Below are positions 17,553-22,452 of a stretch of DNA of 64,000 nucleotides, piece by piece. Position 1 is the first letter of the stretch. Every line of letters begins with the position of its first letter. Origin of the DNA: Pyruvatibacter sp. HU-CL02332. Lineage in GTDB: Bacteria; Pseudomonadota; Alphaproteobacteria; CGMCC-115125. The translations under genes and the position numbers were made by a program. The notes beneath the pieces were generated by a model, which made no database searches, had not been told where the DNA came from, and worked only from the letters and a program-made list of their open reading frames with translations. Location of the stretch: contig NZ_BAABWK010000002.1 of assembly GCF_040362765.1 (NCBI RefSeq), positions 372,001 to 436,000 of the forward strand, read 5' to 3'.

Positions 17553-18869
17553 CTAGGCGGCTTTTGCCTTGGCTGATGGCTTACGGTTGCGGCGATTGCG
17601 CTGTGGCGGACGGCCAGTGCTCTTCTTGCCGCCACCATCCGTGCGCTTGCCAACTGGCTTGCGACGACGTGGTTTGCGCTGGGCAGGTTCGGGCTGTTGC
17701 AGCACCTGACGTTCTTCTTCCGGCACAACTTTACGCCCGCTGTCTGCGGGGCGATCCACCACATCAATCTTGCGTTTGATGAGCCGCTCAATGTCTCGCA
17801 GAAGGCCGCGCTCAGCACCGTCACACAATGCAATAGCTTGTCCGCTCTTGCCGGCACGGGCGGTTCGGCCGACGCGGTGCACATAGGCTTCAGCAACGTT
17901 GGGAAGTTCGAAGTTCACCACGTGTGAAACGTCATCCACGTCAATGCCGCGGGCAGCAATGTCCGTTGCCACCAACACATTCACTTTGCCTTTGCGGAAT
18001 GCGTCGAGACTGCGCACGCGCTGGTTCTGGCTCTTGTTGCCGTGAATGGCGGCCGAGGCGAAACCATACATCTCAAGATGCTTGCACACTTTGTCCGCGC
18101 CACGCTTGGTGCGGGTGAAGACAATGGCCCGTTCCATATCGGGCGTTGCCAGATAGTCCACGAGCGCGGCACGCTTTTCTGCCGTCTTGAGCATGACCAC
18201 TTTCTGGTCAATGCGATCGATCGGCTTGGAGTTGGGCGTGACCGTCACTTCGATCGGGTTATGCAAAAACACCTGCGCCAATGCACGGACCTGTTTCGGC
18301 ATGGTCGCTGACAGCAGCATGGTCTGCCGCTTCTTGGGCAGATAACCCATGATGCGCTTGATCTGAGGCATGAAGCCCAGGTCGAACATCTGATCTGCTT
18401 CGTCGAGTACAACTTTGGTTGTCGCATCGAGGCGCAGGTTCTTGGAAGCCACGTGGTCAAGAAGACGGCCCGGCGTTGCCACCACAATGTCTACGCCCTT
18501 TGCCAGAGCTTTAATCTGCGGTGGAATTTTTGCGCCACCGACAATCACAGCCACTGAAGGCCGAGAGTGCTTGCCATAGGCACGAATGTTATCGCCAATC
18601 TGCGCTGCCAGCTCGCGCGTTGGCGCAAGGATCAGGGCTTTGCAGGTGCGGTGTTTTGCAGGCATTGGATCGCCACACAGGGCGTGGAGGATCGGTAGCA
18701 CGAATGCAGCGGTCTTGCCGGTGCCGGTCTGTGCGATGCCCAGAATATCTGATCCATCCATCATGGATGGAATGACCTTGGCCTGAATTGGGGTAGGGGT
18801 CGTGTAGCCTTCGTCGGAAATGGCACGAAGGATCGGCTCGGCGAGGCCGAGCGATGTAAAATCTGTCAC
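17553..18869 (-). CDS. rhlE: DEAD-box RNA helicase, RhlE type
   Basis: The 438-residue protein carries all DEAD-box motifs: Q motif 'YTTPTPIQAKVIPSMM', Walker A 'AQTGTGKTAAF', 'PTRELAAQ', 'TPGRLLDH', 'VLDEADQMFDLGF' (DEAD), 'SAT', 'IVFTRTKRGADK', 'ATDIAARGIDVDDVSHVVNF' and 'HRVGRTARAGKSG'. A basic, Lys/Arg/Pro-rich tail of about 70 residues follows, probably for RNA contact. Such helicases remodel rRNA precursors and mRNA, often at low temperature. The start is a GTG at 18869 with only a weak purine stretch before it. Upstream lies a dense set of inverted repeats (18948-19077) that may be a structured leader. Confidence 0.93.
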   Translation of the reverse strand: MTDFTSLGLAEPILRAISDEGYTTPTPIQAKVIPSMMDGSDILGIAQTGTGKTAAFVLPILHALCGDPMPAKHRTCKALILAPTRELAAQIGDNIRAYGKHSRPSVAVIVGGAKIPPQIKALAKGVDIVVATPGRLLDHVASKNLRLDATTKVVLDEADQMFDLGFMPQIKRIMGYLPKKRQTMLLSATMPKQVRALAQVFLHNPIEVTVTPNSKPIDRIDQKVVMLKTAEKRAALVDYLATPDMERAIVFTRTKRGADKVCKHLEMYGFASAAIHGNKSQNQRVRSLDAFRKGKVNVLVATDIAARGIDVDDVSHVVNFELPNVAEAYVHRVGRTARAGKSGQAIALCDGAERGLLRDIERLIKRKIDVVDRPADSGRKVVPEEERQVLQQPEPAQRKPRRRKPVGKRTDGGGKKSTGRPPQRNRRNRKPSAKAKAA

Positions 18870-18947
18870 TTAGGTACTTTCAAAATGAGTGCCCGCAGCC
18901 AGCCGGATAGTCCGAAATAGCGTCATGGCACGGGAACGTGTCGCGTG

Positions 18948-19077
18948 GCCTTTTTGATACTCAAAAGGCAACTATGAGGGTCGTCTGTTTGACCCTCATC
19001 TTGGGCACGCGGCGGACATTTGAATGTCCTGCCCGTACCGTTCGCGAACGCCAATGTCGGTTCCAAATCACTTGGAA
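18948..19077 (-). repeat. Run of five adjacent inverted repeats upstream of rhlE
   Basis: In the 369-base gap between rhlE and the sulfatase gene, five inverted repeats follow one another: GCCTTTTTGA/TCAAAAGGC (18948-18957, 18961-18969, one bulged T), ATGAGGGTC/GACCCTCAT (18974-18982, 18991-18999), GGACATT/AATGTCC (19014-19020, 19023-19029), the 12-base palindrome CGTTCGCGAACG (19039-19050), and TTCCAA/TTGGAA (19061-19066, 19072-19077). All but the first are perfect. They would fold into successive hairpins in the rhlE leader or act as protein sites. No open frame of note was seen in the gap. Confidence 0.7.
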
Positions 19078-19176
19078 GCTCAACAAGACCTGTGACATGA
19101 CAGCTAAATAGAGCAATTACAAGGCATGCCACCTATGCGCAGGCGCCTGTTTGAGCACGCAGGCCCACTCAAAAAC

Positions 19177-19205
19177 TTGACAAATCACGGGATCCCGAAT
19201 GTATT
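19177..19205 (+). promoter_or_regulatory. Sigma-70-like promoter of the sulfatase gene
   Basis: TTGACA (19177-19182) is a perfect -35 box; TGTATT (19200-19205) follows at 17 bases as a fair -10. The spacer holds a 10-base palindrome CGGGATCCCG (19188-19197). Transcription would start near 19212, inside the palindromic element at 19204-19226. Confidence 0.55.
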
Positions 19206-19238: not shown

Positions 19239-20897
19239 ATGGGGAAGAAGATCGTTCTGGGGGTTGTGGCCGCAGCTATTGTTCTGGGCGGCCTTGCCTA
19301 TCTCATGCGCGTGGACATCATTTTGTATCTTGCGACGAACACCGGCAAGATTGATGTCGCACCCCATCAGGAAATCAGCTGGAAATCAGCCGACCCGGAG
19401 CGGGCGAGCAAGGCTGCTGCGGGCGCGCCCAATATCGTCTTCATCCTGGCTGATGATCTGGGCATCAACGACATCTCCACCTATGGCGGCGGCATGAATG
19501 GTGGTGCCTTCAAGACACCTCACATTGATCGACTGGCAACTGAGGGCGCCAACTTCACTCAGGCTTACGCAGGGACGGGCACCTGTGCACCATCGCGCGC
19601 CATGCTCATGACCGGGCGTTATCCATCACGCACAGGCTTTGAGTTCACTCCCACGCCGGATGGAATGGCCGATGTCGTCGGAATAGTTTCCGCAAGCATG
19701 GATAGTGGCTTGCCAGACGCCTACGTGCCCGACAGATCCGGCACGCCAGAACTCACTTACCAGGAAAAGGGCCTGCCAGGGTCTGAACTGACGGTTGCAG
19801 AAGTCCTCCAGGAGGCCGGATACCACACCGTCCATATCGGCAAGTGGCACCTGGGGCGCGGTGAAGAATTCGACGCCACGTCTCAGGGCTTCGATGAAAG
19901 CCTGTTGATGGCCAGCGGTCTGTTCCTGCCTGAGGATGATCCCAATGTGGTCAATGCCAAGCTTGATTTTGACCCCATCGACAAATTCCTGTGGGCCCGC
20001 ATGCAATATGCCGCGAGCTACAACGGCAGCGAATGGTTTGAGCCGGGTGGCTACCTGACAGACTACTGGACCCAGGAAGCTCAGAAGGTTATCCGCGCCA
20101 ACAAGGATAATCCGTTCTTCCTGTATCTCGCCCATTGGGGCATCCACACACCGCTGCAGGCCACCAAGGAAGACTACGAAGCTGTAGGTGACATCCAGCC
20201 CCATCGCGCACGGGTGTATGCGGCCATGATGCGCGCGGTCGACCGCAGCGTCGGTGATATCATTCAGACGCTGGAAGAAGAGGGGATTGCCGACAACACG
20301 ATTATCGTCTTTTCCAGCGACAATGGCGGTGCCGGGTATATCGGCATTCCGGACGTCAATGCACCGTATCGCGGCTGGAAGATCACTCTGTTTGAAGGCG
20401 GCATCCGTGTGCCAATGCTCATGCGCTGGCCGAACCGGATTCCCGCCGGGACTGAAATCGAGTCACCCGTCGCCCACATTGATGTGATGCCGACACTTGT
20501 CGCTGCAGGCGAGGGCACAATCCCTGACACCATCGAGATTGATGGCAAGGACCTGCTGCCGCTGGCAACCGGTACGTCTACGGAAGATCCGCACGAAGCC
20601 ATTTTCTGGACCAGCGGCTACTACCGCGTTGTGCGTGCAGGTGATTGGAAGCTGCAGGTATCAGAACGACCGAACAAGGCGTGGCTGTTCAATCTTGCCA
20701 GCGATCCGACCGAGCAGACCAACGTGGCTGAGGCCAATCCTGATGTGGTCAGCAGACTGACGGCCTTGCTGGATGCGCATAGCGCCGGTTCACGTCCGCC
20801 GCTCTATCCACATCAGGCAGAGTTCCCGGTTGCTGTCGACAAGACACGGGCCGAGCGGTTTGAAGACGGGGATGAGGTCATCTACTGGCCGAACTGA
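19239..20897 (+). CDS. Membrane-anchored sulfatase (arylsulfatase type)
   Basis: The 552-residue protein has an N-terminal hydrophobic span (residues about 5-24) without an obvious cleavage site, so it is probably tethered to the inner membrane with its catalytic domain in the periplasm. The type I sulfatase motif 'CAPSR' (Cys116) with following 'AMLMTGRYPSRTG' marks the Cys converted to formylglycine. 'IVFILADDLGIND' gives the metal-binding Asp pair (72-73), and 'HIGKWHLG' and 'VFSSDNGG' are further active-site motifs. It hydrolyses a sulfate ester of unknown nature. The ATG at 19239 has AGGTGG just upstream; a GTG three codons earlier is the alternative. The converging neighbour encodes a formylglycine-generating enzyme, its likely activator. 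Confidence 0.93.
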   Translation: MGKKIVLGVVAAAIVLGGLAYLMRVDIILYLATNTGKIDVAPHQEISWKSADPERASKAAAGAPNIVFILADDLGINDISTYGGGMNGGAFKTPHIDRLATEGANFTQAYAGTGTCAPSRAMLMTGRYPSRTGFEFTPTPDGMADVVGIVSASMDSGLPDAYVPDRSGTPELTYQEKGLPGSELTVAEVLQEAGYHTVHIGKWHLGRGEEFDATSQGFDESLLMASGLFLPEDDPNVVNAKLDFDPIDKFLWARMQYAASYNGSEWFEPGGYLTDYWTQEAQKVIRANKDNPFFLYLAHWGIHTPLQATKEDYEAVGDIQPHRARVYAAMMRAVDRSVGDIIQTLEEEGIADNTIIVFSSDNGGAGYIGIPDVNAPYRGWKITLFEGGIRVPMLMRWPNRIPAGTEIESPVAHIDVMPTLVAAGEGTIPDTIEIDGKDLLPLATGTSTEDPHEAIFWTSGYYRVVRAGDWKLQVSERPNKAWLFNLASDPTEQTNVAEANPDVVSRLTALLDAHSAGSRPPLYPHQAEFPVAVDKTRAERFEDGDEVIYWPN

Positions 20898-20904
20898 TCG
20901 ACTG

Positions 20905-21819
20905 CTATCCGTCCCGGATAACCCGAAAGCCGATGTGGTTGGTTGAAAAATCAACCTCCGACGGCTGTCGGGCCTCGGGACGGTAGCGACGGCAGAAATT
21001 GTCCGCGCACAGGTATGACCCGCCTTTGATGGTCTGCGTTCCGTCCGCATAGGGTGTGTCGGTGAGTTCCCACACATTGCCGATCATGTCGTAGACGCCA
21101 TTTTGATCGGCTGGGAAACAGCCAACGGGCGACGCTCCGGAGAACCCGTCCTCGGCCTGGTCAAAGAAGGGAAAGACCCCTTGCCACGTATTGGCGCGTG
21201 GCTTGCCGGTTTCATCATATGCGCCGGATGTCGTTACATTCTGGTCGGGCAGGCCGCTGGACGCTGCAAACTCCCACTCTTCTTCCGTGGGTAGTCGGGC
21301 ACCGGCCCATTTTGCATAGGCTTGCGCGTCCGCGAGAGACACATGAACAACCGGGTGATTGTCCAGACCTTCTATGGATGAATCTGGACCGTTAGGTTTC
21401 TGCCACGTTGCACCGGGTATCAGCCGCCATGGATTGCCAGTCATGCTTCCATCCACGATCCGCTCAAACACCGCAGACCCTGCACCGGTCCGCCCGGCGG
21501 CGATGTCACGTTCAGCAGTTGTTTCATAGTTCGTCGCGTCAACGAATGCCGCAAACTGCGCGTTGGTGACCTCGTGCGTTTGAATGTCAAATCCCACAAC
21601 GTGCAGACGAAGACCCAGTTTTTCCTCCGGGTAGACAGCGTTCCTGCCTTTGATAAATGAGCCCGAGGGAATTGATGCAAAGCTGCCAATGCGATCTGTC
21701 GTCAGGCCGCACGAGGCCGCGTTGGTCGCCGTTGGGCCGTTACCTTCAGCTGACGTCGCTGTGCGCTCATCGCATGCTGCAAGCGCACCAATCAGTGACA
21801 GGAGGATGACGAAACGCAT
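20905..21819 (-). CDS. Formylglycine-generating enzyme-like lipoprotein
   Basis: The 304-residue protein starts with a lipoprotein signal, 'LIGALAAC' (Cys16), then a linker and the FGE-sulfatase domain from about residue 45: 'SIPSGSFIKG', 'DIQTHEVTNAQFAAFVDATN', 'HPVVHVSLADAQAYAKWAGA', 'RLPTEEEWEFAA', 'NVWELTDTPY', and the C-terminal active-site segment 'GGSYLCADNFCRRYRPEAR' with Cys271 and Cys276. These match the two catalytic, copper-binding Cys of aerobic FGE, so it should oxidise the sulfatase Cys to formylglycine. The lipoprotein signal implies action outside the cytoplasm, unlike the cytoplasmic bacterial FGEs known to me. The stop lies 8 bases from the converging sulfatase stop, and the start directly abuts the TetR stop. 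Confidence 0.88.
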   Translation of the reverse strand: MRFVILLSLIGALAACDERTATSAEGNGPTATNAASCGLTTDRIGSFASIPSGSFIKGRNAVYPEEKLGLRLHVVGFDIQTHEVTNAQFAAFVDATNYETTAERDIAAGRTGAGSAVFERIVDGSMTGNPWRLIPGATWQKPNGPDSSIEGLDNHPVVHVSLADAQAYAKWAGARLPTEEEWEFAASSGLPDQNVTTSGAYDETGKPRANTWQGVFPFFDQAEDGFSGASPVGCFPADQNGVYDMIGNVWELTDTPYADGTQTIKGGSYLCADNFCRRYRPEARQPSEVDFSTNHIGFRVIRDG

Positions 21820-22452
21820 TTACGCTGCCACCAGTTTCTCAACACTGAACCGAATTGCCTTTTCAGCCTGCTTGGCAGTGAGTTCCTGATCCTGCCGCAA
21901 CCGCCTCCATGCATTGAAGCCTGTGAGCATCTCCAGCGCCGCAAAAAGCGTTTTGTCAGACTTGATGTGGCTGGGGAGAACGCCGGCCAGACCTTCGCGC
22001 TCCATGGTCAGGAAACGCTGGTAGTCCTGCATCAGATATTCGGACCTGAAACGACGCAGCCCTGCGCATGTCTTGATGGGCATGATGCGCTCGTAAACAT
22101 TCACACGCCGATCAATCATCTCAGAAAGGCGCCCCTGCCAGGTAGATGCCGTGAAAGGCTGACTAACGATGGGAAGAATTTCTGCTTCCATCTGGGCAGA
22201 CATTTCCCGGTAGAGGCTGTCTACATCGTCGAAGTGTCGGAACACGGTTCGAATGCCGACCTTTGCCTCCTCGGCGAGGGTTGCCGCGCTTGGATCCATC
22301 TCGCCGCCCCGGATGACCGAGAACATAGCCGCTACAATTTTTGCGCGGCTTCGCTCACTGCGCTGCCGGCGTCCATCACCTTGCCCAGCCACTTCAGTGG
22401 AGGCTGGTTCTGTAGATTTGGATACAGCGTTGGAGTGTGACTTTGGCGCCAT
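21820..22452 (-). CDS. TetR family regulator of the sulfatase/RND locus
   Basis: The 210-residue protein has a Ser/Lys-rich N-terminal arm of about 30 residues and then a TetR helix-turn-helix: 'KIVAAMFSVIRGGEMDPSAA' followed by 'TLAEEAKVGIRTVFRHFDDVDSLY'. The rest is helical. Its stop is immediately followed by the start of the FGE-like gene (no gap), so the two are one transcript. Its promoter (TTGACG/TAGGTT, minus strand) contains the same 11-mer as the sulfatase promoter, which suggests autoregulation and control of the sulfatase. The effector is unknown. Confidence 0.87.
   Translation of the reverse strand: MAPKSHSNAVSKSTEPASTEVAGQGDGRRQRSERSRAKIVAAMFSVIRGGEMDPSAATLAEEAKVGIRTVFRHFDDVDSLYREMSAQMEAEILPIVSQPFTASTWQGRLSEMIDRRVNVYERIMPIKTCAGLRRFRSEYLMQDYQRFLTMEREGLAGVLPSHIKSDKTLFAALEMLTGFNAWRRLRQDQELTAKQAEKAIRFSVEKLVAA

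Follow-up and report, generated by a model that had tools for sequence, protein, structure and literature searches.

The window analyzed here is the whole stretch of 64,000 nucleotides from Pyruvatibacter sp. HU-CL02332. Within it, a stretch rich in inverted repeats (18948-19077) lies between an rhlE-like gene on the minus strand and a divergent sulfatase gene on the plus strand, starting at about 19239. The genes and repeats at the locus are the following:

17553-18869, minus strand: rhlE-like DEAD-box RNA helicase gene, 438 aa, GTG start (open reading frame; Pfam DEAD and Helicase_C; orthologues)
18877-18881, minus strand: GAAAG, weak ribosome-binding site 7 nt before the GTG (conserved in all four genomes of the genus)
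18948-18969: inverted repeat 1, arms of 7 bp, loop of 8
18974-18999: inverted repeat 2, arms of 9 bp, loop of 8
19014-19029: inverted repeat 3, arms of 7 bp, loop of 2
19039-19050: inverted repeat 4 (palindrome), arms of 6 bp, loop of 0
19061-19077: inverted repeat 5, arms of 6 bp, loop of 5
19239-20897, plus strand: sulfatase gene (domain matches)
20905-21819, minus strand: gene with an FGE-sulfatase (sulfatase-modifying) domain, convergent with the sulfatase gene (domain matches)

The best NCBIfam matches of the helicase are RhlE2/RhlE, with scores below their curated cut-offs. A helicase gene with a GTG start and a weak ribosome-binding site, as given in the preliminary description of this DNA, is present beside the repeats, GAAAG at 18877-18881 being the only such site. 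On the other side, the sulfatase and FGE-sulfatase genes are likely an enzyme/activator pair. As judged by eye, both seem to be missing at the rhlE locus of one genome of the genus (G001); there, the rhlE leader directly follows the end of a regulator gene resembling that at 21820-22452 of the window. By eye, TTGACA at 19177-19182 is a likely sulfatase promoter. It is situated past the repeats, and the sulfatase mRNA should accordingly lack them.

The five closely spaced inverted repeats that first drew attention to the locus are real and exceptional. Counting arms of at least 6 and loops of at most 10, five non-overlapping perfect inverted repeats were found in 18948-19077, with arms of 7, 9, 7, 6 and 6 bp (35 bp in all). 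None of 2000 dinucleotide shuffles matched this number (mean 0.28), and every other 130-base tile of the window holds at most three such repeats. Folding of a 141-nt stretch against shuffled controls gave z = -5.06 on the rhlE strand and z = -4.31 on the opposite strand, in each case with 0 of 200 shuffles as stable. As folding is strong on both strands, stability alone cannot tell which of them is meant. The leader DNA occurs once in its genome, and the candidate explanation of a dispersed repeat was rejected on this basis.

Stems of this kind could also be terminators or attenuators working in one or both directions, and one weak terminator-like site is indeed present on the minus strand (18999-18974). 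However, one site compares with 0.4 +/- 0.9 in shuffles, so that no intrinsic terminator beyond chance, i.e. a GC-rich stem followed by a T run, was found in the leader. By eye, none of the stems is followed by a clear T run when read towards rhlE, and as the genes diverge here, there is no read-through to stop. Termination is therefore considered improbable.

We then consider how far the rhlE transcript extends. Upstream of the repeats, two promoter-like elements were predicted:

19118-19123, minus strand: predicted -35, CTTGTA (block conserved in four of four genus genomes)
19095-19100, minus strand: predicted -10, TCATGT, with a 17-nt spacer (conserved block and class-wide pattern)

The CTTGTA-17-TCATGT block (19123-19095, minus strand) is kept in all four genus genomes, with small changes in G001. 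In the rest of the class, the promoter scan covered the 141 full-length rhlE leaders of a sample of 145. The strict pattern CTTG(A/T)(C/A)-N17-(T/C)CATNT was detected in 21 of these 141, always 200-300 nt upstream of the rhlE start, and in none on their opposite strand. Judged from this block, transcription most likely starts near 19088, which would place the repeats within a leader of about 219 nt. The preliminary description depended on rhlE transcription not starting downstream of 18948, and no evidence for such a start was found. Moreover, the leader can be assigned to rhlE, since G001 keeps it without the sulfatase side.

To describe the leader at the level of single helices, minimum-energy folds were calculated without alignment for the four genus genomes in the set (G000, G001, G002 and G003). 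All four folds show a common plan: P0, then P1 closing P2 to P4, then P5, GAAAG and GTG. In the window, from the 5' end of the leader onwards, the elements are:

19055-19085, minus strand: P0, 5' hairpin including inverted repeat 19061-19077 (hairpin here in four of four minimum-energy folds)
19043-19052, minus strand: P1, 5' strand of the long-range closing helix, overlapping the palindrome 19040-19049 (minimum-energy folds)
19004-19039, minus strand: P2, hairpin including inverted repeat 19014-19029 (repeat search, minimum-energy folds)
18974-18999, minus strand: P3, hairpin of 9 bp with the most conserved sequence, GATGAGGGTCAAAC..GACC (repeat search, minimum-energy folds)
18948-18969, minus strand: P4, hairpin (repeat search, minimum-energy folds)
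18935-18945, minus strand: P1, 3' strand (minimum-energy folds)
18889-18931, minus strand: P5, hairpin (minimum-energy fold)

The initial view of five separate units consequently holds only in part: the five repeats are present, but two of them belong to larger helices, namely P2 (19004-19039) and P1 (19043-19052 with 18935-18945). P5, at 18889-18931, is an additional hairpin absent from that view. Because MAFFT aligned G001 poorly with the other three leaders, the helices were matched manually on the basis of the folds; in this comparison, for which we chose the helices ourselves, a single mismatch is seen in each of G003 and G002, while G001 is represented only by the inner part of P0, the core of P1, and P3. 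In the case of P0, the sequence in G001 is largely different and still paired. In the case of P4, one T-A to C-G double change is seen in G002. The pairing of P0 and P4 thus survives sequence change in G001 or G002, and double changes among the three close genomes are few. The core pattern of P3 occurs once each in G000, G003 and G002; in G001 it was not found at up to two mismatches, one base being inserted there. The complete leaders gave fold z-scores of -4.96, -2.92, -3.69 and -1.26, the last belonging to G001 (24 of 200 shuffles as stable), which folds only slightly better than its shuffles.

The P1 helix deserves particular attention. Its pairing UCGCG/CGCGA is found in all four leaders and is lengthened to GUUCGCG/CGCGAAC in G001; since a CGCGAAC partner arises in 4.6% of shuffles of the G001 downstream sequence, this seven-base partner is modest evidence. 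In G001 the palindrome is disrupted, and the distal strand pairs over the seven bases there. According to the folds, the palindrome at 19040-19049 is thus better read as one strand of P1. This bears on another explanation, protein sites, already offered at the outset together with bidirectional termination. In this case, the repeats would be dyads at the DNA level, bound by proteins that regulate rhlE or the divergent sulfatase gene. Inverted repeats are typical of protein sites, the stretch sits between divergent genes, and GTTCGCGAAC is a perfect palindrome conserved in three of the four genus genomes. However, G001 carries a disrupted form of the palindrome (GTTCGCGACC) together with a longer RNA partner (CGCGAAC), and this genome retains the block without the sulfatase side. 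In addition, the predicted rhlE promoter is located upstream of the repeats, which have no common motif. We therefore regard bound dyads as unlikely, and both early alternatives lose ground, the one through the broken palindrome with longer RNA pairing and the other through its single chance-level terminator site. A structured rhlE leader, in turn, agrees with the promoter-like block conserved in four of four genomes, with its retention in G001 without the sulfatase side, and with the common fold plan; relatives do show conserved structure. Altogether, that the repeats belong to a structured and transcribed leader appears very probable.

Regarding the start region, the start codon is mostly paired in all four predicted folds (unpaired 0.03-0.18 at 37 °C), and GAAAG is partly free (0.45-0.83). 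Neither a temperature switch nor an opening of the start region was detected in the folds of the four genus leaders at 10, 25 and 37 °C, and a simple temperature switch was rejected on these in silico grounds. A leader peptide starting from an ATG that lies in the stem of P3 (window sequence MRVKQTTLIVAF) was also considered, as this ATG and its first codons are, by eye, common to all four genomes. However, no ribosome-binding site precedes the ATG, and by eye the frame changes a few codons later in G002, where one base is deleted, and the G001 sequence is different, which makes such a peptide highly improbable.

To expand the comparison beyond the genus, RhlE orthologues were collected at E <= 1e-125, giving 130 of 386 class genomes. 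The 145 leaders examined, among which the more distant ones may belong to paralogues, fell by sequence comparison into clusters of 41, 16 and 15 leaders, plus a genus cluster of three. Compensatory changes, which had been suggested as a check on the leaders of rhlE orthologues, were indeed found in two sets, A3 (26 leaders, mostly of the first cluster) and A5 (21 leaders, mostly of the second cluster). In A3, P1 is nearly invariant (CCGCGUG..CACGCGG), and P2 varies with its pairing retained, showing double changes in 7 of 8 pairs. In A5, P1 reads GCGUAGA..UCUACGC, and double changes occur in 14 of 22 pairs, a count reached by 0 of 500 shuffles. These counts lean towards the structures in question, since the P2 and P3 columns of A3 and the columns of A5 were set by eye after viewing the sequences, and related sequences inflate them. 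Controls made by sliding or shuffling gave lower values for most measures, though not for all: for A3, 82 of 500 shuffles had as many double-change pairs and a slide of +2 gave 9 versus 8, and for A5, the number of further pair types was equalled in 30 of 500 shuffles. RNAalifold on A3 recovered P1 only, without a double change. Before these counts, L142 (near copy of L039) was dropped from A3, and L123 (near copy of L119), L038 and L132 were dropped from A5; L173 is absent from A3.

Two covarying structured motifs are thus present in rhlE leaders elsewhere in Alphaproteobacteria, described by the models R1 and R2 built here, and their matches almost always precede rhlE. A search of 386 genomes with R1 returned 34 matches in 33 of them, with about four expected by chance at E <= 0.01; 31 of the 34 lie upstream of rhlE by position and tblastn, the one beside rhlE in G015 being assigned by position. 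The other three are a second match in G015, one inside an open reading frame (G002:C487) and one in G365. Among the ten R1 matches whose leader lay outside the model, seven are rhlE leaders. With R2, 20 of the 386 genomes had one match each, 19 of these matches lying upstream of rhlE by position. The last one, L253 (G107:C26), adjoins by eye a degraded rhlE-like frame that tblastn at 1e-5 did not report; here the R2 leader has outlasted its gene. Searches by order found R2 in 2 of 2 and 5 of 9 genomes, and R1 in 4 of 4 and 5 of 7. In additional genomes, both R1 matches (G394, G395) lie upstream of rhlE, and of the R2 matches, the one in G393 was confirmed, and the locus in G391, whose stretch stops some 215 bases further, showed no match to rhlE.

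Two side observations concern the class-wide leaders. Firstly, cluster C (15 leaders, e.g. L012, L150, L152 and L165) shows a third conserved block, TTTCTTTCCGACAT..GGGCGTTTCGTTAGAC. Secondly, weak initiation signals look conserved: of the 102 leaders that have a standard codon (ATG, GTG or TTG) at the assigned start, 70 begin with TTG or GTG, and 71 carry GAAAG within 20 nt upstream.

The window leader itself is not a member of either motif, as its best scores with filters off were 2.5 bits against the R1 covariance model and 3.6 bits against R2, and membership was rejected. It has in common with R1 and R2 the rhlE gene, the distance, the promoter layout, the weak GAAAG with a non-ATG start, and a hairpin domain that is closed by a long-range helix some 75-100 nt ahead of the start. 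It is unlike them in having three hairpins inside P1 and unusually strong stems. In terms of z-score it is the second most stable of 142 rhlE leaders. A general over-stability of rhlE leaders was not found, the class mean being -0.73 in sense versus -0.68 in antisense. A short sequence, AGCUUCCAA, is common to the window leader and R2, but at different leader positions and absent in G002, and was taken as chance. The leader L116 (genome G228) has TGAGGGTC and GGC(C)ACGCGA in common with the window leader and may be a distant version of this element.

With its several hairpins closed by P1, the domain resembles a stable processed RNA, and the P3 loop sequence is conserved, so that the leader might be cut out as a small RNA with targets elsewhere. 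However, the leader has no Rfam match, and within the genus it was not found apart from rhlE; a small RNA of this kind is thus not a likely explanation. In detail, the only Rfam 15 family at gathering score in the window is a tRNA elsewhere, the leader at E <= 10 retrieved only AsdA (11.9 bits versus 52 needed), and a scan of 20 loci returned only tRNA. A published description of rhlE leader motifs was found neither in Rfam 15 nor in the mainly openly accessible literature covered.

Leaders through which RNA-processing proteins control themselves are known. In Escherichia coli, the 5' UTR of rne lets a degradosome component repress its own mRNA via leader hairpins. Gene and structure are different from the window leader, and the analogy is one of mechanism only. 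In Synechocystis, the RNA helicase gene crhR is autoregulated and responds to temperature (PMC3485376). This is another gene in another phylum, comparable to the self-control proposed for rhlE. The closest case is rhlE of Caulobacter crescentus, for which one report describes a 186-nt 5' UTR with several predicted stem-loops, whose loss lowers expression of a transcriptional fusion (PMC5472812). The same report gives higher rhlE expression in an rhlE mutant, a rise of RhlE protein and of a translational fusion at 10 °C, and association of RhlE with the degradosome (PMC5472812). As in the window, a long multi-stem-loop leader there precedes a helicase gene with a GTG start and GAAAG, the latter two read from the primers printed in that report (PMC5472812). 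Several stem-loops are likewise seen in the window leader, and a long 5' UTR is predicted from the promoter-like block and its position. The Caulobacter leader was tested by experiment and the window leader is known from its sequence, the likeness lying in the features just named.

Because of this analogy, the window leader is most likely an element of post-transcriptional control of rhlE. Overall, we consider it likely that the five repeats are stem-loops of a folded 5' leader of about 219 nt in the rhlE-like mRNA, with a putative role in cis and feedback by RhlE. Taken separately, a cis-regulatory role is probable: the leader would act after transcription and set the helicase level, either by shielding the message or by governing how the RNA degradosome and ribosomes reach it. 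Feedback through RhlE is a tentative proposal by analogy, in which RhlE, alone or with RNase E, would lower its own expression via the leader; the need for the leader in Caulobacter and the higher expression without RhlE fit such feedback (PMC5472812). RhlE or the degradosome would then be the sensor, with a presumed unwinding step. Equally tentative is a cold response, in which translation would rise in the cold, as described for Caulobacter (PMC5472812).

In a wider and rather doubtful extension, alphaproteobacterial rhlE leaders would form a single, fast-diverging family of RNAs that sense helicase activity, of which R1, R2 and the window leader are lineage versions. Here, the P1-closed domain would be remodelled by RhlE and the degradosome, switching the rhlE mRNA between protected and degraded states. 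The outcome at hand consists of two covarying RNA motifs tied to rhlE and a very stable lineage version in the genus of the window, and with these, helicase self-control in Alphaproteobacteria becomes testable with simple reporters. If the extension is true, the leader would read helicase activity directly and thereby set the level of the RNA helicase.
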